Positions 18,217 through 64,000 of a stretch of DNA of 64,000 nt are shown in pieces; position 1 is the stretch's first letter, and every line of letters starts with the position of its first letter. The stretch spans positions 114,406,001-114,470,000 of the forward strand of contig CP142453.1 in assembly GCA_038049695.1 (NCBI GenBank), written 5' to 3'. The position numbers and the translations under genes were made by a program. The DNA is from Cinnamomum chago (taxonomy: Eukaryota > Streptophyta > Magnoliopsida > Laurales > Lauraceae). The notes beneath the pieces are model-generated. The model was not told where the DNA came from and did no database searches. It worked only from the letters and a program-made list of their open reading frames with translations.

Positions 18217-18466
18217 TATTAATGTAAAGTTTTCAAATAAATGTAAGATTTTCAAAATAGGGCTCAAATTTTGCCCCTTTTTCATAAATAAATAAATACA
18301 AAATAACCTTGGAACTCAAAACAGATTCCAGTGATCGAGTTACAGCAGCGTTTTCCATCGATCGCCGCTCGGTCCTTTTCTTCTTCATACTTTCACTATC
18401 AAAATCTAACTTCTTCTTCAGAGACATTCATCCAAACACCTTGCATGTATCATCCTGCGCCGGCGT

Positions 18467-24603: not shown

Positions 24604-25110
24604 ATAGACTGAAAAATTGAGCATAATACATTAATGGTTATTTTTGTTTTGCACATATCTTGAGATTCACAAGATATTATGTGATCAAAATTGACCACAT
24701 AGCTGTTTTCAGCCGCCCAAACATATCCAGCGGTTTTAATATTGTATTTGGAGCCTACATATCACAACAAATTATACTCAATGGCTCACGGTTTGTGGCA
24801 CATATCTCGAGATTGGTGAAGATTCAACGGTTGAAATTTAATTACATGATCATATTTGACCTTGTGAATATTTTTAATGGTTTGGATCTTGATTGGGCTT
24901 ATCAAAGTTGGAGGAAAAAAAAAACTGGATTGAGCGTAATTAAAAAAAAATGGACTGAGCGTGATTAAAAAAAACTGAACTGAGCGTGATTATGCATAAA
25001 TACTGTAGCTCCGCGTCTTCTTTTTTTTTCCTTCTCTCTCTCTATTTTTCAACTACCTCATCAAAGGGGCTGTAGAAAGTAGAGTCATTGTCTCTACTTC
25101 TTCGGTTAAA
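24604..25110 (-). mobile_element. Fragment of the Harbinger-like tandem-unit family (one unit)
   Basis: In reverse complement this stretch matches 37650-38060 closely (tcaagatccaaacc, aaatttcaaccgttg, ccaatctcgagatatgtgc, tgtggtcaattttgatc). It also matches the gagctacagtatt block of the element at 53684. Only one internal unit is present. A short A-rich tandem repeat (gagcgtgattaaaaaaa, three copies) lies at 24925-24995. Clear terminal inverted repeats are not visible, so this copy is truncated. Confidence 0.65.
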
Positions 25111-30400: not shown

Positions 30401-30979
30401 AATGGTTATGCATGAGAAAATAAAACAAGACAGAAAAGTGCAAAAGAGTCATCAATAGGTGCAAGGGGAAAATAGAAGATGTATGTTATCATCACTTGAA
30501 TTCCAACTTACAAAATTGGCAATGGAACTGACTAATTGAATAAGAAGTCATCTTTTCAATAACTGCAACTGCTCATTTTAATTTTTCCAGACTTAAAAAG
30601 TGAAGTTGGTTACCTGCAATCCATTTGTGTTGAGCTTTTTAATGGCGACCACAATCTGTTTGCCATCACCATTAGGAGGTCTGATGAAACCTTTATAAAC
30701 ACTCCCAAACCCGCCTTCTCCAATCTTAAGCAAGAGGCTGAAATCGTTTGTGGCATTCCTCAGCTCTGAGTATGAAAATACACACAAGTTTTGCGCCTTC
30801 TCCTCATACAAGGCCGGGATACTTCGATGCGAGGACGACACTGTGCTGGCCGTCGAAATTGAAAAGGAGCTACCAGGTACTGCAGCTGAGTTATCCAATT
30901 TTGACCCCTCCACCGATACTGGTGCGGATTTCTGCTCACTAGTCCTAAATCTCCTCTTGAAATAACAGAAACACTTCAT
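27416..30979 (-). CDS. PCRK: Receptor-like cytoplasmic kinase, PCRK1/PCRK2-like (RLCK-VII)
   Basis: Four exons on the minus strand, 30979-30614, 29325-29065, 28394-28272 and 27967-27416, join in frame to 433 residues. All kinase landmarks are present: P-loop GEGGFGSV (about residue 98), VAIKK lysine, [16 protein letters not shown], catalytic [12 protein letters not shown] (an RD kinase), DFG, the AAPEY activation-loop end, and [21 protein letters not shown] Ser-rich N-terminus and a ~70-residue C-terminal tail flank it. [11 protein letters not shown] at the start and [14 protein letters not shown] before the kinase fit the PCRK group. These kinases relay signals from pattern-recognition receptors and support salicylate-dependent immunity. 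There is no Met-Gly myristoylation site; Cys3 and Cys5 beside basic residues suggest S-acylation at the plasma membrane. The subgroup call is by recognition, not alignment. Confidence 0.88.
28430..28760 (+). other. Acidic coding-like stretch in PCRK intron 2
   Basis: On the strand opposite the kinase gene, 28555-28755 is an ATG-initiated 66-codon frame ([31 protein letters not shown]). It is preceded in the same frame by Glu-rich codons interrupted by stops (about 28430-28545). Its composition differs from the AT-rich intron around it. I do not recognise the family. It may be a remnant of a captured or retroposed gene. Confidence 0.35.
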
Positions 30980-37536: not shown

Positions 37537-38460
37537 GCTCTAATTTTTACCTCTATTTCTCAAAATCTCATAATTGGATAAAGATTTTGAGGATAGAGGT
37601 ATTTGACAGGCTCTTTTTTAGAAAAATAGAGGTAATGTCTCTATTTCCTACAGCTCACCATTGATTGTATGTACAAAGTAGAAGGGGAAAAAAAGAAAGA
37701 AAAAGAAAGGCGGGTAAACAATGTTCTTGTCCATTCACGCCTTAGTTCGCTTTTTTTCTTCTTCTCAAAATCTAAGAGCGTAAATCAAGATCCAAACCGC
37801 AGGAAATGTTCACGAGATCAAATACGACCATGAAAATTAAATTTCAGCCGTTGGATCACCACCAATCTCGAAATATGTGCAAAAAAAAAAAGAGTCATTG
37901 GATATAATCTTTTGGAATCTGTGGCCTCAAATGCAAAATGCACACCATTAGATCTCTTTGGAGGCATGAAAACGGAAATGTGGTCAATTTTCAAACTTGA
38001 TACCTTGTGACTTTCAACATATTTGCAAAACAATATTAGCCATTGTATTATGCTCAATATTGAATTTGTCCATGAGCAGTACCATTTTTTGTATTTTTTT
38101 ATTAATTTTTTTAGTGTAAATCAAGATTCTAAGAGTTGGAAATGTTGAAAAGATCAAACACGTCCATGACACCAAATCCCAATCATTGGATCAACATCAA
38201 TCTCGAGATATGTGCAAAAAAGCTTGAGCCATATGATGCAATTTTCTAAAATCTATGGACCCCAAACACAAGATCTAAATTGTTAAGTCGCCATAAAGTC
38301 AATTTTTAAGGCTTTATACCTTGTGGATCTTGAGAGATTTATGAAAAACATTCAACCATTGATATAACAAAGTCTATTTTAACATAATAATTTTTTTTTA
38401 ATGGCTCTATTTTAATGGATCTAATATAAAAAAAAAATAATAGAGATACCAAATAAGGCC
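37537..38460 (+). mobile_element. Harbinger-like non-autonomous element, 924 bp, two internal units
   Basis: The element is flanked by TAA on both sides (37534-37536 and 38461-38463), the PIF/Harbinger target-duplication type. The ends are similar inverted sequences (left gctctaatttttacctct, right complement ggccttatttggtatctct). Inside are two tandem diverged units of about 310 bp (from ~37787 and ~38105), each with tcaagatyc, atttcagccgttggatca and ctcgaratatgtgcaaaaa blocks. No transposase. It sits just upstream of the eIF4G promoter. Confidence 0.7.
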
Positions 38461-38689: not shown

Positions 38690-39254
38690 GCTAACATTCT
38701 CTCTCTCTCTCTCTCTCAAAACTGCACTCAAACACGAGAGAAAAAAAATACAAACAACAGCAAGCAATCAATCAAAAGCCACACGAACAGTGCAACCATC
38801 TCCCAATAACAAAACTAGAATACACCAAAGAAAAAACAGTCTCTCTCTCTCTCTCTCTCCTTCTTCTTGTAACTGTTGCAGAAGAAGTTTTCTTGTGTTG
38901 TGCTTCTCGCTCTTCTTTCTCTCTCTATTTCTGATCGTTGTTACGGTTCCCGCCACTCGCTGTGATCAACATTTCCTCACTCTGGAAACCCTAATTTATC
39001 TGTCCATCTCTCACGTTTCCAGGTAAAAGATGTTGGAAACCCCGGCTGCTTCTTGTATGCTGGAATTCCTTCTTTCTAGTTGGAAAAGTTGGATTTTTCT
39101 TAGGGTTTCTGTTTGCATCTCATCTTCATTGTTTTGATGGATTGAATAATGGATCTTCTCTTCTCTTCTTTTTTTTTTTTTGGCGAGGTTTAATTTGGTT
39201 TCTTTGATGTTGCAGAGAGGAGAAAAAGAAGAGGAGGAACGAGGGATTGAATTC
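38690..39254 (+). promoter_or_regulatory. eIF4G 5' leader with CT repeats and a 5'-UTR intron
   Basis: Pyrimidine repeats (about 38697-38717 and 38841-38860) mark the likely leader, as is common in plant 5' UTRs. A donor at 39022/39023 (TTCCAG|GTAAAA) and an acceptor at 39215/39216 (GATGTTGCAG) define a 193-bp leader intron, followed by 39 bases of purine-rich leader before the ATG at 39255. The transcription start is not determined. Confidence 0.6.
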
Positions 39255-42200
39255 ATGTCATTCAATCAATCTAGGGTTGAGAGGAGCGAGTCGTTGTCGA
39301 GGAGACATGGTCGATCGGGCAGCTATTCGCAGCAGCAAAGGAGCTTTGCGGGCGGCGGTGGGGCCGCTCCTCCAACGTCGCCGGCATTGTCGACGAACAA
39401 AAGGTTATTCTTTTCTTCTTCTTTGGTCTTTGTTTTGGTGGAATTGGCGCTTGGTAGGGTAGGATTTGCAAATTCGCTATTCAAGAATTCGATTTTGGAG
39501 ATTATGATATCTCATTGAAATGTTGGTGTGTGTATTTTTCTCGGATTGGTAGCTTCAAGAAGTCTGGTACTGGGCAAGGCGGGCAGTCTCGGATGGGCCC
39601 CACCACAACCTTGAGTTCTGAATCCAATGTTGTTGTTGCCACTAACCGAGCCACGCCGAATGGTGTTCGTGTTCAATCGCAATTGCATGGTAGGGAGTTT
39701 ATGCTTTACTTTTTAATCTTTTTATCTGAGAGGTGTGTTTTTTTTTTCCTCTAATTTTTTTATTTTTGCGGTCCTGGTCTGTTTGAAATTAGGACTGGAT
39801 TGCTATGATAATAGAAAAATGGTGAATTGTGATTGATGCAGGTTTTATTTTTATGTTTGTTGTTGTTTTCAATGTGCTTCAGATGTACCAGTGTTGGGTG
39901 CTGGCAAGCCGATTGATTCGTATGTCCCAAAAAGCTCCCGAGCCATTCCAAAGGCTCCATCTTCTCAATCGGCTTCTGCTGCTGCAGATACTTCTACTCC
40001 TGGAACACCATCTAAAGGTTCAGTTTTATTCCTCAAATGAAAATGTAGTTTCAATTGCGCTTGCTAATTAAGGATTAGATTTATGCACTATTTTTACCCA
40101 AAATTGGAATGCTGAAATAAGGAACTACTTCAAAATCAATTTCCAGGTTTATAAGCTATCAGAGTACAAACAATAAACAACTAAAGTTTCCAGGTGTCCG
40201 TGATTTAGTTTGGGCCAAATTTAAGGTTCCAGGTTCCAAATAGAAAATCATCATTGTTATAATTACCACCACACTCATCTTATCCTCCTTCCATTAAATG
40301 GGGTTGGTTTAATGAGTTATACCATGTAACTATAGAGTAAGCTAGGTCATCTTATATTCCTACTTCCTACCAAGAGTGCATGCAATAGCTCTCTCTCTCC
40401 ATTAAATGGAGAGAGAGGGAGAGCTCTATAGGGAAAATGAACATTCCTTCAATGTATAACCGTAGTTGTCAATTTCATTCCTTTCCAACCGGAAGTGGCC
40501 GGAACATTCTAGAATTGGCCTAGGGTGGAATGGAATGCCCCTCAAAGATTCCGGGCCCAATCTTGGCCCATTATGATTGTTCTGGGCCCAAAATTGGCCC
40601 AAATTCTAGCCCTATTATGGCTCATTCTAGACAGAACCGAATGCCCCCTTAAAGTTTTATTTCGTTTATTAAGTAGTTTTAACAAGTTCACATATTTCAT
40701 GCTTTCATTCATACATAGTGAAAGCTAGAAAATAGTCAATTGTAGAGTATAGTTTAATTTAAATATTGGAAGTATTCATTTTTAGTATTATTTTAGCATT
40801 CTACTCTTTTTTTTTTCCAATTTTAGATTATTCTTTTAGTTTTTTCATTTTTCATACAATTTTTCTAGAACAGAACACTGGAATTGATTGGAACCCCGGA
40901 ATGTTTTACTATAGGGTGAAACCGGAATGGGAACTGAAATGGAATTCTCAACTATTCGTATAAGCCCTAAAACGCACAAAAGATGTGGAGAATCCTCTCT
41001 AACTAATCTTCAAGTGCTAGATTTTTTTTTTTATGGTGACTAAATTTTATTCAAAGCATCGCATCTGTAAAAGAGAAATATAGTAGATCACTACTCAAGG
41101 ACTACCCACAGAGAGATGAACACCCATACAACGCCCAAAAATCAAAAGCTTCAATGTACGATTGATAAACAAGAGCTACAAGAAACTCCCTCTTTGACCA
41201 AGCTATCCGCCTTGGAATTAACACTCCTTTTGACATGAGAAGAGGAGAAAGCATGTCCTTAGACAGATCTGTCACCTCCTCAATGACATCCAGCAAGAGC
41301 AGGATCCGAAGCCCACCTGGTGGCATAAGCTATCTCTTTCCACTATGGCATTGTGATTGTTAAGGTGGCGAATTTCTCGAAGGCCTAACTGCAGAGCTTC
41401 AGCTTCCACTTTGTTCACAAAGCAATGACCTGCCAGATGAAAAGGAATTAACAAAGTATCTCCTCGCTATTCCAAAGAATACCCTCAACTCCTGCCTGAT
41501 TCGGATTGCCAAGAGCACCCCCATTAAAATTAAATTTGATACAACCGAGGGGAGGAGGAATCTAGGGCGGATGAATAGAAAGTTTTTACACCAAAGAGAA
41601 AAGCAATCTTATGCCAACATCTCATGATGGAAGTTATAGAAAATTCTTGTAACTCTGAAGAACTGGACGCCCAATATGCAACATAGAATTTAACCTTTTA
41701 CAACAAAGATTCCAAGGAAGAGGTCTTGTTCTCAAAGCATCTATCATTCTTTTCCCTCCGAAGGTACCAAATGACAACTAGAAAGAAAGCCTCCACATAG
41801 TTCTTTCCCTTCCTGAACCCTTTGCCACTCTCCATGCTTAAAACAAATGACATAGAGAGTTGGAAAGAACCCAACTACAATTGAACCATCTGAACACTGA
41901 TCTTACAGAGAGAATGGAAGAAGTAAATGGTACCTCTGTATCTGAGGTAGCAATGAAGGTGGTGTTATCTGAGATACCCTTTTTTCTTATGGTTTTTTTG
42001 GTAGAAAACCAGAGATGCCTTATAATTGAGAAGGAGATGGCAAATAGATTTCTGCATTGGCAACGCAAAGAGGACAAGCATTGACCATATAGATCTATTG
42101 CTTCCGACGATTGTGCATAGTGAGAATGCGACCTATGCAGGCCAACCACCCAAAAGCAACCATGCTTGGTGCTGCTTTGAACTTCCAAATGCTAGCCGGC

Positions 42201-45200
42201 AGAGAAGGACAATGGCCACCATCTGACATTGCATGATAAAAATATGCGATGGAGAAGTTCCCTTCTGACAAACAAACTAGTCATTTCTCCAACAAGTGAT
42301 CATCAACCTTCCACTAACCCACCCAAAAGACACATGCAAATTCCAAATGGGTTATCATGGGCTCTAAAATCTAAGTGGAAAGAAAGTGGGAAGTTATGCT
42401 ATAAAATCTGTTTTAATTTTGCGAGCCTCTTGCTCAATGACGATTCGGCCGTTTTTCTTATTTACAACTATTACTTTCCATAAATAGGGTGTATTGAGCA
42501 GTCTACTATTGTAATTCATTGTGATGCGTCAATTTAGAATATTGTAGTTGCTTGATTCAGTCGGCTATCAGAACCTCCCTTTCCTAGTCTGGACTGTTAA
42601 ATGGGCTAGTGCTAAATGGGTCAGTGGGTCAGCCCATGACAAATAAAGCCCAAACTTGGGAGATAAGTTACTTCACATGTACAGATATGTAATTTGTATC
42701 ATTGCCATATTAGGAGATGTAATTTAGATTCTGATTAGAATAGATTGGCTATAATCAAGTGATTGCTACAATTATGTAACATATATAGCAACTATATTCT
42801 ATAAAGGATGATCGTGAGCCCTGAATGGGATTCATTGAATTCACAAACAGATTGTGTCTACTGTTTCTATCTTCCTTTCTCCCTACTGGCTTTGACATGG
42901 TATCAGAGCCCTGAGTAAACACAACTCTATACAGAGTTTCTGAGTGATCTTCTTCATCTTCCAACCATTGGAAGTCATCGAGTGTCTTCTATACTCAAGG
43001 AATCTTCATCCTCTGGTCTGATCAAGGTGTGATCAGACGTGGCCCACCCCAGATCCACACTACTGCATCTGGATATTGCAACCAATCTGGTCGACTGCTC
43101 CTTCTGGTATTTGTGGGCATTTTTTGAGGATTTTTAGCATCTCAGAGGTAGGCTTTCTACCCGTTCTAGAGAAATTCCAATTTCTGCTGTATCTTTTCAT
43201 CACAGCCGTCCAAGTTTTTGGATTTTGATCCTTTTTGTGAGCAATCTGGTTTGTTTGGTGCGAATTTGTGGTCCTCATCATCCTATGATCTCTGATTGAT
43301 CATATATTACACTGGTTGACTGCTGCATCCTTTTCTCTCTGCAAAATCCTGGACGCCTGGGCCTATTTTTTTGGTTTTTTTTGCTTAAAAGGTGCTGCTG
43401 TTGGAATCTGTCTTCTCTGATTTCTCTGTTGCAAACTTGGACTTCTCTGTTGCACACTTGGAACTATTTCTCTCATCCGGTTAGCCATTCTTTAAGAAAC
43501 AGTTGGATTTTCTTGCTCATACATCTACTGCCATGGAAAAGCATGACATTGTATTGATTAAATTTAATGGAAAGAATTATACTTCCTGGTCCTATCAATT
43601 TCAAGTCTATCTTGAGGGAAAGGAACTGTGGGGACTTGTTTCCGGATTAGATCCACGTCCTCGGGAATATGAGAAAAAAATACTCTCTTGGCATACAAAG
43701 GATGCCAAAATAAAAACCTGGATTCTTGGTTCTGTTGAACCCCAATATATCCTGAATCTCAAACCTTACAAGACCTCTAAGGAGATGTGGGAATATCTGA
43801 AGCAAGTATATCACCAACGGAACTCAGCCCGACAATACCAACTTGAACTGGAGATCGCTCAGTATACCCAAGGGACTTCTTCCATCCAGGATTATTATAC
43901 AGGTTTTCTTAATTTATGGGCTGAATATGATGAAATCAAATACCTCAATGTCTCTGAGGCCGCTCTGTCTGAGATTCAAAAATTACAGGCAACTTCTCAC
44001 AGAGACCAATTCCTCATGAAATTAAGATCTGAGTATGAGATCATTCGTTCCAATCTGATGAGCAGGGTTCCATCTCCATCCCTGAATGAGTGTCTAAATG
44101 AACTCTTGCGAGAGGAACAGAGTCAGATAACTCAGCATGCTCTAAAGCAACAATCCTCCGGAAACTCTTCTGATATCGCATTTGCTGCCACTACCAATTA
44201 CAACCCGGGAGGGATCACTCATCATACTATTTCTGCTTCGAAAGGACAACCTCCAGCAAGAGATCTCAAAAAAATCCAATGTTTTGGCTGCAAAAATTAT
44301 GGACACTATGCCTCACAGTGTAAGACCAAGTTTTGTAATTATTGCAAATCGAATGGTCATGTTATTACAGAATGCAAAACGCGGCCACGAAATCGCACTC
44401 CACGAGCTTATCATGCCAACACTGCAGATGCTACTTCTTCTAGTGCTAGTCCTTCGGCACCGGTCACGCCTTCACCACCTCCTGCCACCAATAGTGTTCC
44501 TCAAATCACCCCTGAGCTTATTCAACAGATGATCATAAATGCCTTCTCTGCACTTGGCATTTCAGGTAACCACCACTCCTCTTCCTCCCTATGGTTTATT
44601 GATTCTGGAGCTTCCAATCATATGACCACCTCCACCGCTCATCTATCTAACCTGCAACCATACAATGGAAATTTACAAGTCCATACTGCTGATGGTCAAA
44701 AGCTTCCTATTACAGCTACTCGTGATATCATTCATTCATTACCTCTCACAAATGTCTTTCTTTCTCCTCATCTCACTACAAATCTTCTGTCTGTTGGCCA
44801 ATTGATTGATGATAATTGTAATGTTTCCTTCTCTCGCTCTGGTTGTGTTGTGCAGGATCAAGTGTCGGGGACGGTGATCGCGAAGGGGTCTAAGTGTGGA
44901 CGCCTGTTTCCTCTCGTTCTGTCTCCTTCTCCGAATAATCAGCTTTCTGCCTTTTCTTGTTTTTCTCCTCAGGATGTTTGGAGGCTCTGGCATAATAGAT
45001 TAGGCCATCCTCATTCTAAATTGTTATCTTTGATGTTAAACACTGGTAGTCTTAATGAAAATAAAACATCTTTTCGTCACATTTCTGATGAGTGCTCTGT
45101 TTGCAAACTTGGAAAAAGCAAAGTTCTTCCCTTTCCTTCCAAATCTATTATGGCTTCAAATTGCTTTGACATTATTCATAGTGACGTCTGGGGGATTACT

Positions 45201-48200
45201 CCGGTAATCTCTCATACAAATTTCAAATATTTTGTCACTTTCATTGATGATCATAGTAGATTCACTTGGGTTTATTTCTTACACTCTAAATCTGAAGTCT
45301 TTGATGCTTTCCAAAAATTTATGGCATATGTTGAAAATCAGTTTTCTACTCGCATAAAAGTTCTTCGATCTGATTCCGGAAGGGAATATATGTCCCATCC
45401 ATTTCAAACTTATTTGCAAAAATACGGGATTTTATCACAGCGATCGTGCCCTTACACTCCTCAACAGAATGGAGTTGCTGAACGAAAGAACAGACATCTC
45501 CTCGATACTGTTCGTTCTCTTCTCTTAGAATCATCAGTTCCCGCACGATTTTGGCCCGAAGCTTTAGCCACTGCAGTTCATTTAATCAATCGCTTACCAT
45601 CCCATCGCCTCACCAATCAAACACCACACTTTCGTCTCTTTCATACCAAGCCTACTTACACCCACCTACGCATTTTTGGATGTGTGTGTTTTGTTCATCT
45701 ACCCTCAACTGAACGTACCAAATTAACTGCTCAATCGGCAAAATGTGCGTTCCTTGGCTACGCATCTCACCAAAAGGGGTATCTTTGTTATGATCTTGTG
45801 CTCAACCGTCTTCGCATTTCTCGGAATGTCACATTTTTCGAAAATCAAATTTTTTTTTCTACCCATTCTTCTCCTTTACCTTCTGTTTCTCATCTACTAG
45901 CTTTTTCTGACTCGACCACTGCTCCACTCATTGTTTATGAACGGCGTCGTCATAAGGATGTTCCACTACTGCCTCCCCCTCCAGATCCCTCGCCGGCACC
46001 TGATCTTGTCCCCGCTTCATCCTCTCCAGTTCAGCTTCGACGCTCTACGCGTATCTCCAAGCCTCCTGACAAATATGGGTTCACTCACACGTCTTTGCTT
46101 GCTGCCCTCTCCTCCATTGTTATTCCGACTTCTTACTTGCAGGCGGTGAAGCATGACTGTTGGCAAAAGGCTATGCACGACGAATTAACGGCACTGCAGG
46201 AGAATCATACCTGGGATATTGTTCCATGTCCCTCATCTGCAAAACCTATTGGCTGCAAATGGGTTTTTTCTGTCAAACTTAAGGTTGATGGCTCTTTGGA
46301 TCGTTATAAAGCACGGTTAGTCGCTCTCGGCAACCGACAGGAATATGGCATCGACTATGAGGAAACCTTTGCTCCAGTTGCGAAAATGACTACAATCCGT
46401 ACTGTTCTTGCCATTGCTGCTTCTCACTCCTGGCCTCTTTACCAATTTGATGTCAAGAATGCCTTCCTTCATGGTGATCTCAAAGAAGAAGTCTATATGC
46501 GACTTCCCCAAGGCATTACGGGTGCATCAACAGGCGATTGCGCGCGCTTACGCCGCTCTCTATATGGTCTTAAGCAAGCTCCGCGCGCCTGGTTCGAGAA
46601 ATTTAGGGATGCTCTCATTCATCTACAGTTCACTCAGAGTGCTTCTGATCCTTCTATGTTCCTTCACCGCTCCTCAAAAGGGCTTACTGTCCTATTGGTG
46701 TACGTAGATGATATCATCATCTTTGGGACAGACTCTGGCATGATCACACATCTACAAGCATCCTTACATGAATCTTTCCATATGAAAGATTTAGGGCCAC
46801 TCACATACTTTCTAGGCCTTGAGGTTCATCAGTCAGCGAAAGGTCTCATCCTTGATCAACACAAATATGCTATGGATCTCATTGAGACAGCTGGTCTTCA
46901 AAACTCCACTCCTGTAGATACTCCTGTTGAGGCCAATCTTCAGCTCACGCACGATATTGGTGATCTTCTTCCTGATGCCACAATGTGTCGCCGTTTAGTC
47001 GGAAGTTTGATCTACTTGACTATTACTCGGCCTGATATCTCCTATGCAGTAAATCTGGTTAGTCAGTTCATGACATAACCACGCCATCTCCATCTAGTTG
47101 CTGTTCGGCGCATTCTTCGATATGTTCTTCATACACCATCTCGTGGTCTGTTCTTTCCTGTGGGCAATTTGACGTCTCTCATTGCTTATTCAGATGTTGA
47201 CTGGGCTGGTTGCCCTGATAGTCGTCGATCTACCACTGGTTGGTGCATGTTCCTGGGGGACTCCTTAATTTCCTGGAAATGTAAAAAACAAGATAAAGTC
47301 TCCAAATCTTCCACAGAAGCAGAATATCGTGCTATGTCGGCTGCCACATCTGAAATTGTCTGGCTTCGGGGTCTTCTTTCTGAGCTTGGATTTTCCCAAT
47401 CTGGTCCTACTCCTCTTTATGCCGACAACACCAGTGCCATATGGATTACTGAAAATCCTGTCTTCCATGAACGTACAAAACATATTGAGGTGGCTTGTCA
47501 TTACATACGTGATGAATTTGTGCGTGGAGCAATTACTCTTCCTCATGTTTCTACCAGCCTTCAAATTGCAGATATCTTTACCAAGGGTCTTCCCCGGCCA
47601 CGACACCAATTCTTAGTTGGCAAATTGATGCTCGTGGATTCACCCGCATCAATTTGAGGGGGGGTGTTAAATGGGCTAGTGCTAAATGGGTCAGTGGGTC
47701 AGCCCATGACAAATAAAGCCCAAACTTGGGAGATAAGTTACTTCACATGTACAGATATGTAATTTGTATCATTGCCATATTAGGAGATGTAATTTAGATT
47801 CTGATTAGAATAGATTGGCTATAATCTAGTGATTGCTACAATTATGTAACATATATAGCAACTATATTCTATAAAGGATGATCGTGAGCCCTGAATGGGA
47901 TTCATTGAATTCACAAACAGATTGTGTCTACTGTTTCTATCTTCCTTTCTCCCTACTGGCTTTGACATGGACCACAATACTAGAGGAGATAAGGAATCTA
48001 ACAATTCCACACTCACTCCCCCATGAACCTAACTCGAGGAAAGCAAATAACATACCCAATACGACATGAAGTACTCTAAATATAACATGAGCATCCACAT
48101 ACAAAAGCTAAGAAACTTGAAACTAGTCTCATATGAATGCTCCAGTTATTGAGAGTAACTAAAAATGAGGGAATGTGCACTACTAGAATGTCCTGTATTT

Positions 48201-51200
48201 CATTGAGCTTATGTGTATATTATATACTATCATCATATCTCATTCAAAACTAGTCACACATGGAAACTTACAAAAGTTTTAATGACATACACCGTGCTCC
48301 TGAAAACATTTGTTTCACTCCAATCACCACCTTTAACCCTATAGAAGGAAAAAAAAAAAAAAAAAAACATCTTCCTATATGTATTAATGACTCTATAGAC
48401 TCTTTGACCATGCACAACCAACAATACTTTCAATAATAAATATTTTTGGCCATGCACAACTATCCAAGTGTGGAATACTATCTCATGCAAACATATATAA
48501 CTAATATACACGAACTATCATAAGAATGATCTGGACATTATTTGGCTGATGTGGATGGGCCATGCAATAGATGTTATGAAAACTTTGATGTTGACGTTTA
48601 TTTTCTGTCTAATCGATACACATATTGATATGTCATACTATTAATACTATCTTCTTCAATTAAGTCTTTATCATTATCCTTGGGTTGGGGAAAACTCAAC
48701 CTCAATTTTCATCACTAACATCTTCCTTTTCAATAAGGGAGTCAAGCTTAGGACAGGAGGTAGGTGCACCACATTGAAAACATTTGTAGTAGTGACATTA
48801 CTAGGTGACTTGATCTCATGAGCATTTTCATTAATCTGCTTTTGAGCAAATGCGACAACTCACACAACCCAATCATTTTAACTTAATCTCATTATAGGTT
48901 TCCGTGGGCAAATGCTTTTGGTATGCCCATACATGTTCTTCCTCGAACATTGACTTCTCTGATGCCTTTTCCATTGCTTCTTTGTATTTACATTGTTGCC
49001 TCAATATGTTCGCGGACTTTATGATGGATGTCTGTTATGTTCCTCCCAGAAGGTGGGCGATTCAAGCACTGCCCTCCACCGACTCTTTCCCTTCTTTCCT
49101 ATTTTCCCAGATAGAAAGAACAAGGAAGATGGGAAAAGGAGAAACAAACTTGAAATGGGATGAAACTCAAGTTCGAGGATGAGATTACCTCCACAATAAA
49201 CTTTACTGATAGATACTGGATGTCCTTCCATTGCTACATTACTGAATTTAAATACATAAAAGAAATAACAGAGATCTGAAAAAACTAACATAGTAGTGCT
49301 TCCTACAATTGGGCATCCTTAACTAACAACTATCCCCACTTGTTGAAACCACCTGTACATGGAGCTTGGACTAATTCAACTTCTGCAACTGCTTAGAACC
49401 CATGATCTGCTCTTCCCAAACTACTCATACCTCTGGCTCCCCTGCAATGGGTACCATAACAATGTCCCAAAAATGCTTTGCCAAATCTTCTGCTTCACCG
49501 CTAAATATTCCTAGTTAGGAACAGAACCACATTCAAAACATTTTGGGATTGGATCCAAAAACAATATCAAATGAGGATTATTTGTTGTTCGATTCTTCAT
49601 ATGGTTATGCGCGAACTTGAGATGAATCTAGATGAGATCCCAATCCCATTTCTTTGGTTGGTTTCCCTCTTATCTTTGAAGGTTCAGTTTGGTCATCAAT
49701 ATGTGGGTGAATACACATGGCTGAAAATCTCTAGAAAATCTCTATGTAACATTGCGGACAAAAATGATCTACGTATTTGATGTCACAATCTGAAGTAATG
49801 GCTTTTAGAATGCGCCTTGAATCTGCACCATCTCATCAAAATACAAATGAGTAATGATCCTGCAACATAGAATAAAATGTGCCGTTTTGGAAACTTGATC
49901 GATGACAACCAAATATAATATGTATACCTTGTTGCATTCGTGGAAAACCCAAGGCCCTCCCATGGAGCTGTCAGCATTGGCCATGAGTGCAAAATGCTCG
50001 TCTTCTGCAAGTGGCCTTTATTGGTCCAATAGCTATGGACCTACCAACAAATCTTCTTACGTCCCATTTTAACTTTGGAAAAATTAAATTCTCCTCAACC
50101 ATGGAAAGTTTCCAATCTCCTCCCAAAATGACCCCTAAACCTCCATAGTGCTGTTCATGGTCAACAACTTTAGAATTTAAACAACTTGGGACATGTGTTG
50201 CTCTGATATGGATCTAGATACAAACATGAATATAGGGATTGTAGGAACAACTTCCACTTTTGAAAATCCAAGACACGATATGGATATGTCCATCCTATCC
50301 GTAACACTAAATTTTTAAATTTCATAGTTACATTAAAAATTTAGTGTTAATTTTCTTCTTTAGAACATTTCTAGATTAATGAAACTATCATTGTCCGAGG
50401 TCTATTTTGATATATATTATATGAGAATACTCTTGCACTCATTAGCTCAAGTGTGGAAACACCTAATGGGGCCTGCCTGATGATCCATTCAAGTGGACCA
50501 TAAAACATGGACTGATAGTCACCGATCCCTGGGTTTGGCATCAATCCGAATGGACTAGACTGTTGGGCCGACGGTGTACTCGATCAAGTGGTTAGGATAA
50601 TCAATTAAGCCTCCGTCGCCATACATAGGTAGGTTGGGATTTTGGGTGGAACCCACCCCCCCACCCCCCCCCCCCCCCCCCCCCCCCCGGGTTTGTCACA
50701 ACTCAAAATACGGGCCCTTCAAATTCTGTGCCATGTGGATTAAGCATCAATAACACCATCATAAATCAAATCATATGCACATAAAGATTCAGGCTTTCCT
50801 AATCAAATTGGAGTCTTTATTTAATAGTCTACCAATAAAAAGACATGCTCCACAATTTAAAGAAATTGAGACATAATCAACTAAAATATTTAATGTTCCA
50901 AAATGAAAAAAAATGTCTCATAAACTAAATCTTTTAATCTTCTAATGAGTCCTCATGCTGCTCAACCACAAATATCGAATCCTATTTCTTCACTGCCAGG
51001 ACCCTCCTGCATCTCTAGGTTTAGATTACCTGGATTGGGGCAAAAAACAACAACCAATATTTTTGAGTGATAGAGTTCTAAATCTACATGTATGTGAGAC
51101 ATCAATAAAAATAGAGAACATTTCACAATTAAACATAACAATGATTTTCATTTGAGGTCAGATTTAAGGTTTCTAATGCTAGCCTTAGGACTACCACCGT

Positions 51201-54200
51201 ATGGCTAGTGCTTTCAAATCATACATCTCAAGGATGGCTTATGTAATTTTAAAGGCTGAACTATAGTCAGTCGAACGGATGACCTACAGCCAGTAAAACT
51301 TAGCAACTGACCTAAGAGTCAAAGAAATTACGCGGTTGGCCTAAAGTCAACCTAAGTAAACCATCTCTTAGCCTCACATGGTGGTGATTTGTGGGGGGGG
51401 GGGGGGGGGTGGGGGGGAATTGTGGTGTGTTCTCCAATGGGTAGGTCCAATTGATCCATCATACCAAAAAGATGTTCTTTCCGTACATAATTATTACTAA
51501 AGCACATCCCTTGATTGGTCTCAATCCTTATAGATGGCTTGAGATCATACCCTTACATAGTTTCAAACTTATTATGCTTTGCACCATCTCATTACTGGTA
51601 TTCGATTGTATAAAGGCAATCTCATAGCTCATATTGTATAAGTTTGAGGTTTACCAAGATCAAAACAATAGGTGACATGTGATACCACTACAATTCAAGA
51701 ATCACATAATATCACGATCACAAGCAGCATAATTACCATGTGGGAATGTCATAGAATTTCATCACATGTAAATAGGATTGTAAAGAACTAAATACAAGCA
51801 AGTGGTTCAAAACTAGGGAGGGCAGGGATAGAAGAATCTGGATGGCTTCATCTGATGGCCCTGGTGTCTTCTTTCTTCCCTTCGATGTCTGAAGAGGTGG
51901 CAGAGAGCCATTCTTTCTGGGACAGCTTGTGGAGCATGAAAGCTCCGCCTAGAGTAATAGCATTTGGGTGGAATGCGCTGCTTGGTCGGATACTCACGAT
52001 GGACAACTTACTTCGACGTAAAGTGATTGTAGTTAATGCTTGTCCGATGTGCCTCGCAAGTGAGGAATCTATAGACCACTTGCTTCTTAATTTCCCCCTT
52101 GCCCCATGCATATCGAGATCGATATTGACTTGATTCCATTTTTGTGGCCCTCTTCCGAACTCTATCCCTTCTTTGTTTGATGTTTGGAGATTAGGGGTGG
52201 GTTCAAAAAGAGGACGAGTGATTTGGAAGCGTTCGTTCTTTCTTAGCGGCCATTTGTTCCTTATGGAAAGAAAGAAATTTGAAGTGCTTTGAAGGAAAAT
52301 CCTCAGATGTTAGCAAGATAGTGGATAATGTCAAGCATGTTGTGGTTCTTTGGGTCTCCCCTCTACCTTTATTTAAAGGAATTCTGAAAAGTTCCATTCT
52401 TATCAATTGGGATGAAGTGGCTCGTTCTTGTCCTATTTCTAGGTGTATCTTTCCCTGATGGCACGTGCCTCCAAGGTTGGAAACCTCTGGACTCAGACTC
52501 GACTCGTCCAATGCAAAAAAATTGACTCGGATAGAGTCAACGCGGTGACTCGAGAGTCATTTCTTTTTTAAAATAATTTTAAATTTATTTTAAAAATGGA
52601 TCAAATACTCATAAAATATAAATATACATTTATTTACATGCATTCATGATAATAAATTCAAACTAATAAATTTGTATATACAAGAAAAGTATTATAATAA
52701 GAAATTTTTTTGAATGATATTATAATAAGAAAATAAATTAAATAGACTGCATATTACATAATTTGTTAGTCCAAATATCGAATGTAAAATATCAAAAATA
52801 ATTTTCAAATTACATACTAATCATCATTTTAAATTGTTGACTCGTGCATACTTATTTTGAAAACAAATATTAATTGTTTAAAATTAGATCTACCTATCAA
52901 ATGGTTTAAATGTAAATAACTTAATAAACCGAGATGACTCGAGCGAGTCTCCCCTATATTTGACTTGGTCCTTCGTCAAAACGAGATGACTTGGGAGAGT
53001 CAAGAGTTAACTCGGGGGTTTTCCAACCATGCCCACCTCCGCATGGAGCTTTGAAGCTTAATTTCGATGGGAGCGCTCGTGGTAATCTGGGTATGGTAGG
53101 TGTTGGTGGTGTTATCTACAACGAAGATGGGAACATTATTCTATTTTACTATGGCCTAGCAGGTGTTTGCAGGTGCTTGCTCAATCAATAAAGCGAAACT
53201 CCTTGCCTGGAACATAGGTCTTTGATAAGCTTCACGCCTACTTCCTCAACGACTTCTTGTAGAAGGGTATTCTTCTTGTGTTATCCAGTGGATGACTCAG
53301 TCTTCTTCCCCTCCGTGGTATCTTGCAAACATTATAGAAGAGGTGCTTCAATTGTTGGGTGATTTGAACATTTTGTTCCATCACATTATGAGATCAGCAA
53401 TTGCGGAGGCGGATAAACTCGCCAAAGGAGTAGTTCTCCAACCTTGTTTGATCATTTCTGCCCCTACTTAATTTGTTTGTTTTTGGGTTGCCCGTCGTTG
53501 TGGGGCTTTGTTTCTTTTTTGTTTTTGGTCTGACCCGTGTTTTTGTGGTTTTTTGTTTTTTTGTCAGTATAGTCCTCTTATACTGTACAATTTTTGAGCA
53601 ATGAATAGTCGCCATTTAAAAAAAAAGTAGTTCAAAACTGAAACTTAATAATAAAGTTAATAAGATGACATTATGGTCACTAAGGTGGTGTTTGGTGTCT
53701 CTACATCTCGCCTCTATATCTCTTAAAATGGATTCATAACGGTTTTAGACTGTTTGGTAATCATATTTCTCACATCCATTTCAAACCTTTTTTAGATGAA
53801 AACATCTATTTGGGACAGCCTGAGAAAGTGCCCAATAAGAAACAAATACTTTTGTCTGAAGCGGATAGACAACGTGAGAAGAGCGTAGCTACAGTATTAA
53901 ACGGACGGAATTGAGGGTCTGGATTTTTGTTCTTTTTTTTTTTTTTTTCAAATTATGGGACCCAAAATCATCATCCATTCCATTGGATATATTCACAAGG
54001 CCAAACACGGCAACTGTACCAAGTTTGAACCCTTGATTCATCAAGGATCGCAAGATATTTGTGGAAACCTGCAGAACCCTAAATCTACATTTCTGAAATT
54101 CTCTGGGGCCCATAATCAAAATCTGAACCGTTGATTCTTGAGGAAGGTGAAAACGGATGTGTTCAAATGTTAGCCCTTCAGTCATCACAGATCTCGAGGG

Positions 54201-57200
54201 AATTATGAAAAAACGTGAACCATTGATGCACCAAAGAGCCAAAATGGTTGGGTTTACACCTGATTAACAGTCCATTTTTTGTATTAGACTGTGGGGCACA
54301 AAATGATGATCTGAACCATGAGATCTTTTATAAGTTCAAAAACAGCGAGTGTATATAATTTGAGCAGTTTATTTGATACATAGCTCGAGATATTTATAGG
54401 AAACTGTAGACACTTAAATATGTATTTCTGGATTCTGTGGGTAACTTGATTAAGATCTGAACCATTGACCCTCTTGGGAAGATAAATATGGATTTGTGGT
54501 TAAATTTCAGCCATTGATTCTTCATGAATTCTCAGAGATCTATAAAAATTATAAAAAAAAACCTGACCCATTGATGCACCAAAGAGCCAAAAGTGTTGGT
54601 TTACACATGATTTTAATCAGTCCTTTTTTCCTTTTTTCTTTAAATTGTTGGACCCAAAATGATGATCTGAACCATTGGATCTCTTCAAAAGATCAAACAC
54701 AGGCATTGGTTCAATTTTGGGCCGTCGATTCATCAAGGATCTCAGGATATTTGTGAAAAACTGCAGCCCCTTAAATATAAATTTTTGGATTCCGCGGGCC
54801 CCCTAATCAAGATCGGAACTGTTGATCCTCTTTGGAAAGGTAAAACTGTTTTAGAGTTCAAATTTTAGCCCATGATTCATTGTGGTTCTTGAGAAGTTCT
54901 TTTAGAAAAATGTACTTAAAACCTCTATTTCAAAGTATGTACTTGTCTTACCAAACAGTCTATTTATAAAACATCTATTCCACATAGATCTATTATTCAC
55001 AGATCTATTTTTTGAAGATAACATTTGCCAAACAACGCCTAAGTTGGTCCTTATCTTTAAATAAGACTAATTCAGAATACTTCCACAACTCAAGCATGTT
55101 TCGGATGGTCCCTAGACTCTAGGTCTGGCTTGGCATTACCCCCACAGCTCCAATTCAGGTTTGGCTAATGGCAACATGAGAGGGCAGTCCATCATATCTA
55201 TTACCTACATCGATGACCCATCTTAGGGCAATCTTCAACATGGTACAGCCCATCCTATAGTTCCTTACTTCACTCCAGATACTACATAGTTCACCTAGTA
55301 TTGAAAGATCACCCATATCCGTAAACTCCTAGGAATCTAGCATGCCATCAACAAGAGAACTTATGAAACAACATTCCATAGAGGCATAGACCAACAATCA
55401 AGGGTTCTAATGATTACTCCAAGGCCACAGCCCTAAGGATGGTTTGGCACAAACCATAACTCAATTATATGGTTTGGCCTTCACCCAATCCCTACATACC
55501 ATCAGTCGACCAACATTAATTTCCAGGTATCACAGGCGACTAACATTAAAATCAGTTCTGTGCATTTGCAGCCCAGATCTGAACTATCATGGATCAAGCT
55601 GATTTCCATGAATAGGTTGAACAGTCATCAATCATCTTATTACATTACCAAGCCAGCAATAGCTTTTTAGTTCATCAGTCCAAATAGCACCATACATCAT
55701 GGGTAAAGAGGTGCACGGTGCACCACTCCCAAAACCCTAATTATCCAATTCGATTATGAGTTCTGGCCCCAATGTGTAATTCAGCCAATTGTTCATCATA
55801 CCATAGACATCCCTCAACAGCATCAGACCATTAACAACTTCTTTCTATCATTAAACCCTAGATTCTATTAGTAAAGGAACAATTCCAATGAGAAGGACAA
55901 GTAATCATAGAATTCTACTCACCTTTGATTGTAGACTGGCTTTGACAATATGGGGACTGCTATAGGTCATCCACAACAATTCTTAGATCACTTGGCTTCT
56001 TTATTCCATTAATTTTCCTTAATTCTTCTATTTCCAAAGCATGGCTAGGGTTTGAAAGAGAGAGATGAATCCAAGGCCGCATTGCTCGGCCTGGCATGGC
56101 ACGGCGTGCCTGGGCCCTGCCGGTCTTTTGTGTCTGGCTTTCGTGCCATTTTTAGTGTCTTAGACAGAAAAAATTAAAAGATACACACAAAGAAGAGTAT
56201 AAAATATAGATTTAAGTGGTTCGGTCAAACTTGACCCACTTCACTAAGAAGAGAACCATGTGGCTCTTTTCATTTTTGAAGGTTTTTCAGCAGGATTACC
56301 TTCGAAACCTTTACAATTTTTGTAGATAATAAAAATAATAAAGAAGTAAAAGACTATTTTTTATATTTACACTTAAGAAAAGAAAAAATAATTGTATATC
56401 TAGTCCTGTGATGTATTCACTTGGATCGTAATTCAGTTTTTTCCATCTCCCGCTTTCTCTTGTCAGCCAAATACTAGTCTCGTAGGCAAACGCAACACTC
56501 CACTGTACCATACAAATTTCGTCCTTCTGTCATCCACCACACGTCCACCTGCACTAAAAGCTTGTTCTGATACTAACTTAATATCATGCCGACTCCAACC
56601 TTATCACAATCAAGTTGAGATTTTTTCTCAAAATCAAGCATCGCCAATGCCAGAGCTTTAGATATCTTCTCTAAACTTGTAGCTATCATCCACTTCCTTC
56701 ATCCATATGAAATTTCATTTCCTTTTACAATCTGCCATAGAGCCATCATTGTGCTGATGTGTTGGACAAATCAATGGTAGAAAATTGCCAAACCATGAAA
56801 CTTCGCACTTCATTAGTAGGTGTTTCCCAGTCTTGAATTGCCTTAACTTTCTCCTCATTGACTCTTAACACTATTTGTCACATCATCATCAATTCATCAT
56901 GATCATCTTAGCCTTATCTCATCAATTTGCTATCAACGTAACCCAAAAAAATCAATTGATTGCTGATGGAGCTACATTTCTTCTTCTCCAACTAGAGCTT
57001 CTCCAGTGTCCAATATGCCTCTGAATATTTGGGATATACACTTAACTTACGATTCCCCTCATGATCAATCTTAGCCCATCATCGTAACACTCAACCTCCC
57101 TCCCTCTTCTTTTTCCTCCCTATATGCCACAGACACCATGGGTTTTACACCGATCTGAACGGACCAAACCTTTAGGATTGAAATAAAATAAAATGGGATA

Positions 57201-60200
57201 GTGTAACACCATTTAATTTGAGGGCTACAGGTCAAGGGGTTATGATGTTGGGATCAACTTTAAATTATATATATGGGGTGATCCCATCTGGATCTTTTGA
57301 TCCTTCACTTTTGCTATGATTGGCAGGGCCCCAGGTGGGCCCCACAGGATGGTCTCGCACTGTCTCCTGTACAAGACATCCGCACAGCACTATAAGGATG
57401 AACTGGATATTATTAGGCTGGCAAACTGATCCATCACTGTTGGGCGATACTGACGTTACAATATTCAATCAAATTTTCATCGTTGTTCTTCAGTGGAGGT
57501 TGTGTTCATTCTTAAGCACTATAGTCATTGCATATTACTATTCTGTTGCCACAGGAGATGTACCAAGGTCATTCCCTCTTCAGTTTGGATCCATAAGCCC
57601 CGGTTTCATGAATGGAATGCAGGTATATATTTGTTGCATGTTTTGCAGATGATACAATGTTTTTACCAACTATAATTTGACTAAAGCTGTTCCTTTCCTC
57701 TTCAATGAAACAATCACATATGCTGCACATTAGATACCTGCTCGGACTACCTCGGCTCCTCCAAATTTGGATGAACAGAAACGTGACCAGGTTCGTGATG
57801 ATAAATGGCTTTCTATCTTATTGCGATCATGATGGTTTTGTGCTCTATTTTATTTGCTGCTTTACATCACCATTGTCCTCAGCCTGTGTGTATTGTGGAT
57901 CACCATGTTACCTAGATAAATATCACCATTGTCTTAGTACTCTCATCCCATCAATTAGGGTTGGTTTAAAGAGTTCTACCATTTAAACGGGTGTAGAAAA
58001 CTTGCTATTGACTGTATAAACATAATGATAATGATAATGTTGTCCCAGTGGCATTTTAATTTGCTTTATTTTTCTTTTTTCTTTTTTTATCACTGTGTCC
58101 CCAACCTTTATGTTTCACTGTCATTATTTTACCCAGACCATTGCAATCATCATCTTATCCTTATCATCAATCAGGGGTCAGCTTAAGCTTGTCAAAAGAG
58201 AATACAAAACTTGCTAATGGCTAAGAAATCATCGTAATAATGTTATCCCAGGGGCATTTTCTTTGAACTTAGACCTGAAAATGATCTAAAATGACGCTTC
58301 CATTATCTTTTTGTTATCTTATTTTATTTTTTTACTTGAATTGGGTGCAGCAGCTAGAGAGGCTAAGATGGGCCATTTAATCACGACCTTGTTCTTTGCC
58401 CCTCCACCACTAACGCACATAGAAATTCATTGTAGTCCCTTTCCTTTTTTTTTTCTTTTTTTTTTTTTTTTTTTTTTTTGTGTGCAAGTAACAAACTCAT
58501 TAAGTCACTAGCTGTGAAAAATTCAAGCTAATGCTACTACAGGATATTTTGCAGGCACGTCGTGATTCTTATAAATCTATACCCACAACGTCAATACCTT
58601 CAGCTCCCAAGCCACAGAAGAAGAATGTTGTCAGTGCAAACCAACCTAACATCGTAGAGTCTCATCCATCTTCACAGGCAAAGAGGGATTCACAAGTCCA
58701 AATTCCAGTTGCTTCTATTGCCACCACAGCCCAAAAGTCTACTGCTACTCCTATTACTGGAATATCTATGCCCATTTCATATCAGCAACCACAAATTCCT
58801 TTACAATTTGGTGGCCCTGGAGCACAGATGCAGTCGCAAGGCATCAGGGCTAGTTCATTGCAGATGCCAATGCCGCTACCTGTGGGGAATGCTACTCAAG
58901 TTCAGCAGCAAATTTTTGTACCGGGCTTACAGTCCCATCCCCTGCAACCTCAGGGGATGATGCATCAAGGACAGAGTCTGGGATTTGCACCTCAAATGGG
59001 CCATCAGCTGGCTCCTCAGTTGGGCAACCTTGGAATTGGAGTAACCTCACAATTTGCCCCTCAACAACAGGTTGGGATATTTGGTGGTCCACGTAGAACT
59101 GTCAAGATTACTCATCCAGATACTCATGAAGAATTGAAGCTTGATAAAAGGACAGATATGCATTCAGATGTTGGTTCCTCGGGGCCTAGGGTTCATCCTC
59201 ATGTACCCCCTCAATCCCAACCTATTCAAACATTCTCTCCCGCTCATCCAATCAACTACTATTCACCTATTCAACCCAATTCTTATAATTCTTCTATGTT
59301 CTTCCAGAGTCCAACATCTCTTCCTCTAACAAGTGCCCAGATGACTCTCAGTTCCTCAGCAACAAGATACAATTACCCAGTTGGCCAAGGAGGGCCACCC
59401 ATTTCTTTTGTGAACCCTTCCGTACATAATCATTTGCCTGTTAGTAAGGCAGGACCTCCTATGCATGGAATCGCTGAACTTGCAAATTTAGAACATCCTC
59501 GTGATGGTTTTGTGGTAACGCCTTTTGCCCCATCCGCTTCAGTTCAAGTGACAGTGAAGCCATCTGTAACTCCACTTGCAGAAAAGGTTGTGACCTCAGT
59601 GACGGTCAGCTCATCTGCTACCAAGGGTGAATCACCTAAACTAGTGAGACAACCTAGTGGTGAAGCTATTGTTTTCAATCAGCAAGTGGATAATGAAATT
59701 AATTTGGATAGTTGCCTTCAGCAGCCGAAATCTATAGCTGAGTCATCAAATTCCATTTCCTTGCCTGTCACAGTGAAACATTCTGCTTCTGTTCCTTTGC
59801 ATGGATTGCCTCCTAGTCCTTCACCAGTTCCTCCCACTCTGGTGGAAGAGTCTGCTACTGCTGTGAATATTACAGAAGGCGAAGGAAGAGAACCTGTTAG
59901 GAGTTCTAACTCATTGAAGGATCAGAAGAGGAGGCCTAGCAAAAAAGAACTGCAGCTTTCCCAGCAACAGCACCAGGTATGCCATTCTGTGCGCATATCA
60001 ATCTTCCATCACTTATTATTAGGGCTGTCAATGGGTAGGGTTGCAGCAGGCCAGGTTTGGGATGCCTGTCAGGACCAATGCATAAATGAAAAGTTTGTGT
60101 CCTTTATGAAAGTCTCGTATCATCTTAATGATACTTTACAACCATAGGGTTACACAGTTTTTAGTGAGGTTATCTTGCAGTAGCTTCTTGACCATCTTGA

Positions 60201-63200
60201 CAAGATCTCACACGGTTTTATCCTTATCGTATTACTGACCTTGTATGATCATAAATATATGATGGTGCTACTTTTTTAAGTTTGTGACATGAGGCTTTTT
60301 AAAGATCTTGATAAGATCTCAAACAATTTTATTCTTGATACAATGGACGGGGCCTGAGTTTAAGGTCTTATGCTAAATGGGCAGGGCCTAGGCATCCATT
60401 TTAGATTTACTCTATTGAAGCCTATCCCACAAATATTACAGCTGGTCTTGAGCCAGGATTTTGGTCTTGTGGGTTGGTCCAACATGATTTCAGGCCCAAA
60501 ACATGGCCCGATTTACCCCTACGTATGAGATTTCATTTTTTAGGTCATTAGTTGTAATATTTCAATCTTCATTTCATTTAATTATGGAGATATTATTTCT
60601 TTGCAGGCAGATTCTTCTGATGTTGCAGGTAGTTTGAAGTCACCTTTGTCAATATCTGGCGATAATAGTTCCTCAGATGATGCCAGGCAAGCATCCATAA
60701 ATCCTGAGAAGAGGGTTGGAGAGCCTACCGATGTATCGAGTATGCCTCCTAATTTAGAGCCGAGTGTTTATTCTTCATCTGATGCTGATGGAGATAAAGC
60801 ATTAACTTCGACATCAGTAAGCTCTGGACTTATTTTGGAAGCAGCTGGAGAAGCATTACAAGATGCTCATGCAGGCAGTTGTGATGCATCTACAATGCTG
60901 GATGATGGTGGTCTGGATGGGGAGGGAGATCCCTGTGAGCCATCCAAGTCTGTTTGCCTTGAAGCTGATGGGAATACATCTAAGAAGTTGGATGATTCTC
61001 TTCTTACGAAGCAAAATGATTGTGCTATGCTGGATGTTGGATTGAAACAAGAAATTAAGGTAATAGAGGAGCACAGGAATACTAGAAGACCTGATGGGTC
61101 CTCGCAAGATTGCAGTAATTCTGAAATGCATAGTGGATCTAATGTTTCAGAACCTACTGAAGGCGAAGAGGAGGAGGAGGTAGTACCACATGTGGCTGTA
61201 TCAGATAATGTGGAAGAAATGAATGTTGGTGAGTCTAGTTGTGCAGAAACTAAATTTGTGGATGTGAATTCTGCAGCAGGACGGAGCTCTGAAGTTGTCA
61301 GGACAGTGGATAACTTAGTTAGGCCTTTAAATATATCTTCAAGCTCCATTGATGGCACAATAGCCCCTTCTTATTATTCTTCTACAGATGCTCTTGAATA
61401 CGAAACTTCATCGGCTGCCTCCAAAACTGGAAGTGAAAAAAGCACACTTTGTCAAGAAGTTGCCATGACAGGATCTGGTATACTGAGTCAGGAGTCAGCC
61501 ACTGCCCCACATTCAGCTTCGTCTGAAGTCACAAGGAAACATGAATGGAGAGGGACAGAGCGTACGATTGGAGGTCAAACATATACTTCATTGTTGGGAT
61601 CCAAGGATAAAATATCTATGGAACAGAATAGGGCAAAGACTACTGCTGAAAAGAAGAAATTGTGGAAGGAATGTCTTGTGAAAGCAGATGCTGCTGGGAT
61701 AACCTCTGATCTGTATTTGGCATACAAAAGTCCAGAAGAAAAGCATGAGACCCATGTTACGTCGGAAAGTGTGGATAGTTCTGCTGCTGATGTGAAGCAT
61801 GCAGATAGAGATGATACCAAGAGGAAAACAGTGGCAGTTGAGGATGATGGACAAAATAAATCTGAACTGGATGATTGGGAAGATGTGGCAGAGATCCCCA
61901 CTCCAAAACTGAAAACATCAGAAAATAGGGAACTGGTCCATGGTGCCACCAAGCATGATGATGAATATGGAGGCAAGGTAATGGGTAAAAAGAAGTACAC
62001 CAAAGATTTTCTCTTGACCTTTTCAAAGCAATGCAGGGACCTTCCTGTAGGTTTTGAGAATTCAGCGGATATACAAATGAGTGGCCTGGTGGCTGCTTAC
62101 GTGGTTGACCATGATTCCCACACAAGTTATGGAAGGATTATAGATAGGCCAACTGGGGGATCCCGTCTTGAACGCAATGAGAGTGGAATTGTGGATGATG
62201 GCAGATGGGGCAAAGCACCTGGTTCTTTTGGTTCAGGACGGGATCCACGTGTGGACATTACTCACGGAGGTGTGGCTATAAGCTCTCGGCCGGGTCAAGC
62301 AGGCAGTCATGGGGTTTTAAGGAATCCACGTGGGCAGTCATCTGGTCAGCATATTGGTGGACTCTTCTCAGCACCAATGCAGGCACTGGCTTCTCCAGGA
62401 GGCCTGGCACGGAATAGCCTTGATGCGGCGAGGTGGCCGCGTTCTACTGTTTTTCAGAAGGGTTTGATTCCTGCTCCTCAGTCTCCATTACAGGCAATGC
62501 ATAAAGCTGAGAAGAAGTATGAAGTGGGTAAAGCGTCTGATGGGGAACAGATCAAGCAAAGACAATTGAAAGCAATTCTCAACAAGCTAACTCCTCAAAA
62601 CTTCAATAGACTTTTTGAGCAAGTCAAGGAAGTCAACATTGATAGTGCAGTCACTCTAACTGGTGTAATCTCACAGATTTTTGATAAAGCTTTGATGGAA
62701 CCAACTTTCTGTGAAATGTATGCAGACTTCTGCTACCATCTTGCTGGTGCTTTGCCTGGTTTCAATGAGGATAATGAGAAGATTACATTCAAAAGATTGC
62801 TTTTGAACAAGTGTCAAGAGGAGTTTGAGAGGGGGGAAAGAGAGCAAGCTGAAGCTAACAGAGTTGAAGAGGGAGAGATTAAACAGTCCAATGAGGAAAG
62901 AGAGCAAAAAAAGGTTCAGGCACGGAGGCGGATGCTTGGGAATATACGGTTGATTGGAGAACTGTACAAGAAAAAGATGTTGACTGAGAGAATCATGCAT
63001 GAATGCATTAAGAAGTTGTTGGGTCAGCATCAAAATCCTGATGAGGAAGATGTTGAAGCTCTGTGCAAGTTAATGAGTACGATAGGTGAGATGATAGATC
63101 ATCCTAAAGCCAAGGTATATATGGATCAATACTTTGACGCAATGTTGAAGTTATCAAACAACCATAAGCTATCTTCTAGGGTACGATTCATGTTGAAGGA

Positions 63201-63980: not shown

Positions 63981-64000
63981 GTTACATATTGTCTCCTGAT

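Follow-up and report, generated by a model that had tools for sequence, protein, structure and literature searches.

A 17.5-kb transposon-rich intron in a predicted eIF4G gene of Cinnamomum chago

Introns lengthened by transposable elements (TEs) have already been described in several plant genomes. Published reports describe long introns in magnoliids. Of 2184 orthologues in Chloranthus spicatus, 876 are longer than 20 kb, versus two in rice and none in Arabidopsis; introns of the orthologue set averaged 153 bp for Arabidopsis and 372 bp for rice, and long-intron genes were more highly expressed until the introns exceeded 40 kb (PMC8626473). In Chloranthus sessilifolius, 8187 genes exceed 20 kb and introns were lengthened by TE accumulation (PMC8626421), while the mean intron length of approximately 2774 bp in Magnolia biondii (median 525 bp) was attributed to a subset of genes whose introns are exceptionally long (PMC7917104). 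The present work concerns a 17,537-bp intron of a predicted gene for the core translation factor eIF4G, situated in a 64,000-nucleotide stretch of the Cinnamomum chago genome (contig CP142453.1, positions 114,406,001 to 114,470,000 of the forward strand). This stretch is referred to as the window, and all coordinates refer to it.

Intronic TEs are also found in transcribed genes of rice and Arabidopsis. Heterochromatic introns are present in approximately 11% of the gene models of rice, many of which are transcribed, and loss of OsIBM2 alters the transcription of genes with such introns, and of others (PMC7145194). In Arabidopsis, the use of proximal poly(A) sites within intragenic TEs is likely suppressed by IBM2 and EDM2; failure of this system results in premature polyadenylation, and the intronic TE of RPP7 is able to cause premature polyadenylation of the host transcript (PMC10241880). 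RPP7 is a resistance gene, whereas the host in the present case is a core translation factor. COPIA-R7 is located in the RPP7 intron. The element is named in the available part of a further study (PMC7529245).

The eIF4G intron resembles those of Chloranthus and the magnoliids, being long and carrying LTR (long terminal repeat) and other TEs within a conserved gene (PMC8626473, PMC8626421, PMC7917104); eIF4G itself is not named in the available portions of these studies. With the IBM2/EDM2-dependent introns of rice and Arabidopsis it shares the presence of TEs inside a gene body, and a dependence of eIF4G on that system is suggested by analogy only (PMC7145194, PMC10241880). A literature search on eIF4G, long introns and retrotransposons gave no report on this locus by title among the matches listed. 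A first-pass annotation of the window, made from the sequence alone, had presented the intron as a surprise, given that a core translation gene keeps working despite an intron length well beyond the norm for small-genome plants. The presence of a long TE-rich intron in a core translation gene stands on the sequence, whereas its unusualness is weakened by the published plant genomes: the length is fairly called surprising for genomes like those of Arabidopsis or rice, but some lineages have many long introns filled with TEs. The long eIF4G intron is thus ordinary in kind.

Gene model and identity of the protein

Seven coding exons, the limits of which were set by eye from the sequence, constitute the predicted gene model on the plus strand; they span positions 39255 to 63980, and the joined frame runs through 1780 codons with no stop. 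The six introns that separate the exons all have GT...AG borders, and the phases fit. Coding exon 1 (39255-39403) starts with an ATG (MSFNQSR...) and is followed by exons 2 (39553-39689) and 3 (39883-40017), the latter ending in phase 1 at the donor AAG/GTTCAG. The third coding intron (40018-57554, phase 1) separates these from exon 4 (57555-57622), which begins with GDVPRSFPLQFGS behind the acceptor CCACAG/GAG at 57554/57555, and from exons 5 (57734-57790), 6 (58555-59976) and 7 (60607-63980). The remaining five coding introns measure 111-764 bp, versus 17,537 bp for the third one. The phase-1 exon end at 40017 and the resumption of the coding sequence at 57555, both proposed in the first-pass annotation, were borne out by the GT/AG sites and the open joined frame. 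Its numbering of the flanking exons as 4 and 5 fits once an exon of the 5'-untranslated region (5'-UTR) with its end at 39022 is included; a probable 5'-UTR intron lies at 39023-39215 on the plus strand (donor CAG/GTAAAAG, acceptor TTGCAG/AGAGG). If intron 40018-57554 were retained, translation would halt after 147 residues, so splicing is needed for the eIF4G product. The gene model predicts that the intron is removed as a whole, with 40017 joined to 57555.

A tblastn search of the eIF4G product against the window placed every exon at one position and returned one additional match at chance level (E 3.8). As each exon occurs at a single place, the window shows no further 5' end of eIF4G around 57.5 kb; the presence of such a second 5' end had been named beforehand as an outcome that would contradict one interrupted gene. 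The product of exon 7 contains a MIF4G domain (Pfam PF02854, E 1.1e-53, above the cut-off) and matched eight distinct sequences in the PDB, the top three of which are named EIF4GII or eIF4G 1 (E 7.9e-62 to 5.7e-61). N-terminal to MIF4G, the stretch KKKYTKDFLLTF aligns with the eIF4G chain 5me5_B of PDB entry 5ME5 (E 3e-11); we take this stretch to be the eIF4E-binding one, and the 5ME5 chain is presumably from melon. The N-terminal 182 residues gave no Pfam match and, in a contig collection without plant genomes, 110 pattern-matching stretches with no relative among them; we assume that they resemble the N-termini of other plant eIF4G proteins. Likewise, the last exon matched four stretches in viral contigs, none of which was a relative. 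Plant eIF4G carries a C-terminal MA3 domain; here, the window ends at 64000 within the gene, which probably continues beyond it. The sequence gives good support for assigning the locus as a plant nuclear eIF4G gene that contains a long, TE-rich intron.

Copia element and other repeats of the intron

The intron contains a full-length Ty1/Copia LTR retrotransposon in sense orientation to eIF4G. Its 5' LTR (42595-42897) and 3' LTR (47665-47967), each of 303 bp with the ends TGTTAA...TTGACA and thus of the TG...CA type, were identical at 302 of 303 positions in a direct comparison, and the element is flanked on both sides by the target-site duplication TGGAC (42590-42594 and 47968-47972). This bears out the earlier description of a Copia element with two near-identical sense LTRs. 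AATAAA motifs are present at 42642 and 47712, and TATAAA motifs at 42800 and 47870. The left LTR is followed by a primer-binding-site-like sequence (TGGTATCAGAGCC, 42898-42910, plus strand), presumably a primer site of the initiator Met tRNA type, and a G-rich tract precedes the right LTR. A frame of 1197 codons from stop to stop (43485-47078, plus strand) encodes gag, Pol_BBD, GAG-pre-integrase, integrase and RVT_2 as identified by Pfam, in the order typical of Copia, the integrase (rve, residues 563-659 of the frame) preceding the reverse transcriptase (RVT_2, residues 907-1149). One in-frame stop ends this frame and interrupts the polyprotein; the 192 codons beyond it (47079-47657, plus strand) contain an RNase-H part recognised by eye that gave no Pfam match. 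A copy needs an uninterrupted polyprotein to be autonomous, but not to belong to the Ty1/Copia group.

The single difference between the LTRs corresponds to an age of approximately 0.13 million years at a grass substitution rate of 1.3e-8, with a several-fold error. With the rate that one study adopted from work on magnoliids (1.51e-9 per site per year; PMC8626473), it corresponds to approximately 1.1 million years, again with a several-fold error. After removal of the Copia element and one duplication, the intron would still measure 12,159 bp; since all other elements recognised in it show decay, it was probably long already before the Copia insertion.

The 3' parts of two long interspersed nuclear elements (LINEs) were identified, both interrupted by stops. 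The one antisense to eIF4G (41284-42250, minus strand) is firm at 41602-42250 and weak below 41602, its zf-RVT match (E 5e-4) lying below the Pfam cut-off; the sense one (approximately 51792-53471, plus strand) has zf-RVT (E 7.1e-15) and RVT_3 (E 2.6e-5) matches above the cut-offs. In a search of a 2.6-kb stretch, the two aligned with each other over 41602-42250 (E 4.7e-14, 4.5e-6 and 2.5e-6), and weaker matches (E 0.001 to 0.04) extended from 41602 down to 41284. The two LINEs of the first-pass annotation are therefore supported as 3' relics by their Pfam domains and by their mutual match. An unclassified dispersed repeat occupies 51011-51795; a diverged copy of it lies in inverted orientation at 3480-4321 (two aligned pieces of 67.6% and 72.8% identity). 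Diverged copies of another repeat, 61-80% alike, lie at 53929-54880. A C run (50652-50688) and a G run (51393-51409), approximately 700 bp apart in inverted arrangement, may mark a weak spot of the assembly or the ends of an element.

Outside the Copia element, 33 of 132 pieces of at least 42 amino acids were put to Pfam, so further relics may have been missed. Other assignments of the first-pass annotation were not confirmed. For the Gypsy relics, four candidate pieces (49808-50017, 49839-49970, 56718-56864 and 56749-56877 [minus strand]) show a likeness to Gypsy integrase or reverse transcriptase by eye, but none of them matched Pfam. For the Harbinger-like elements, no Harbinger match was found among the 33 pieces, and a strict search of the intron for terminal inverted repeats (14 nucleotides, at most one mismatch, the same TAA or TTA flanks, 120-3500 bp apart) gave no match; no relaxed search was made. 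In no case was one element seen to resume on the far side of another, so that "mosaic" is a safer description of the intron than "nested". The sole transposase-type match among the 33 pieces was a 45-residue piece resembling the hAT dimerisation region (56466-56600, minus strand; E 0.26, far below the cut-off).

Splice signals and competing explanations

Donor sites were scored against a nine-letter consensus, and each expected number of decoys was derived from 60 sequences generated by a first-order Markov model. Donor-like sites with a higher score than the true one numbered 74 in the sense strand (87.0 expected, standard deviation [sd] 8.3) and 101 in the antisense strand (114.9 expected, sd 11.0), a similar picture on both strands. 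Acceptor-like sites numbered 97 in sense (113.0 expected, sd 9.5; approximately 1.7 sd under) and 90 in antisense (93.9 expected, sd 9.0; approximately 0.4 sd under), a weak indication of a larger deficit in the sense strand. On the minus strand of the upstream 36 kb, 31 strong donors (score of at least 7) were counted versus 43.9 expected (sd 5.5), and 201 acceptors versus 228.8 expected (sd 13.7). A purge of decoy splice sites from the intron is unsupported, the counts within it lying within approximately 1.7 sd of chance; as they are near expectation and the upstream 36 kb deviates as much or more, no clear sign of a decoy clean-out was obtained. The earlier statement that splicing must ignore many cryptic sites holds for any intron of such length.

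We consider it highly probable that the third coding intron grown by repeated independent insertions is spliced out whole, with its TE block silenced by heterochromatin and factors of the IBM2/EDM2 type acting on it. Two truncated LINEs and other decayed repeats would have been inserted, the full-length sense Copia element being the latest among the elements recognised. Splice sites can be recognised across short exons, and those of the long intron are probably recognised in this way across its short flanking exons. Heterochromatin would keep the TE block quiet while the polymerase transcribes through it, and IBM2/EDM2-type factors would let the polymerase pass the poly(A) signals of the LTRs. 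The heterochromatic state of the intron and the action of IBM2/EDM2 homologues are plausible by analogy with rice and Arabidopsis. Several observations weigh against this explanation. The true donor at 40018 is weak, scoring 5 of 9 compared with 6 or 7 for the other six coding donors, and 74 of the 776 GT sites from 40018 on (true donor included) score higher. The sense strand of the intron shows no depletion of AATAAA (20 versus 13.4 expected, sd 3.9), and each sense LTR contributes one such motif. In the available part of the Arabidopsis work, Copia elements are slightly over-represented in TE-gene transcripts, mostly in TE-ALE events (PMC10241880).

These last points bear on the possibility that the gene is split in practice, with many transcripts ending at a sense-LTR poly(A) signal and a second promoter, in the 3' LTR or at the intron end, giving rise to an N-truncated eIF4G starting from or before the exon at 57555. 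Such a split is not strictly exclusive of whole-intron splicing, and we regard it as unlikely. It would draw on the AATAAA and TATAAA motifs of both sense LTRs, on the Copia excess among the TE-ALE events in the available text on Arabidopsis (PMC10241880), and on the sequence upstream of the exon at 57555, the frame of which stays open for 78 codons (57320-57554) with an in-frame ATG at 57398 after ACTATAAGG. Among the positions tested in the right-hand portion of the intron, 1.07% have so long an open stretch upstream, but the figure comes from a single examination of a single junction, and the motifs involved are short. Moreover, tblastn found no eIF4G 5'-end protein sequence repeated near 57.5 kb in the window, and the three 5' coding exons are still open in frame, which suggests that they are still used. 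The ATG at 57398 is a possible alternative start of eIF4G, or a product of chance. We assign a very small chance to a combined situation in which the Copia element or the 3' end of the intron supplies a second start, yielding an N-truncated eIF4G from about ATG 57398, while sense-LTR polyadenylation shortens part of the full-length message. If this were true, TE silencing would set the ratio of two eIF4G forms.

The large intron would be costless if the locus were an eIF4G pseudogene or a decaying paralogue. This is very unlikely in view of 1780 codons over seven exons without a stop, and of the alignment of the MIF4G domain and the presumed eIF4E-binding stretch with solved eIF4G chains. An assembly artefact that misplaced the Copia element or a bigger block between the exons appears extremely unlikely: the long runs of C (50652-50688) and of G (51393-51409) are the type of place where an assembly can fail, but matching 5-bp duplications flank the Copia element as in a true insertion, and the phase fits across the intron.

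Surroundings of the gene and significance of the intron

Elsewhere in the window, PPR repeats and an E motif are encoded by one uninterrupted frame at 18410-20083, which measures 557 codons from stop to stop. On the minus strand, three frames at 27416-31003 matched protein kinase domains, of which two passed the Pfam cut-offs and one fell below them; they probably represent one kinase gene with introns. A weak match to a VPS13 C-terminal domain (E 0.0068, below the cut-off) was obtained at 7356-7922. A dispersed repeat is present in two inverted copies 13 kb apart (24613-24894 and 37777-38232) that are 73-78% alike, one of them just upstream of the eIF4G 5' end. Rfam at the gathering threshold gave no match in the whole window, and ARAGORN predicted no gene in it.

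The useful feature of the locus is the presence of a young sense LTR element inside a core gene. It offers a clean single-gene case for asking how a core gene of a plant remains functional with a young full-length sense LTR element, together with its promoter-like and poly(A)-like motifs, in an intron. Should individuals without the Copia insertion exist, the same gene could be compared with and without the element.

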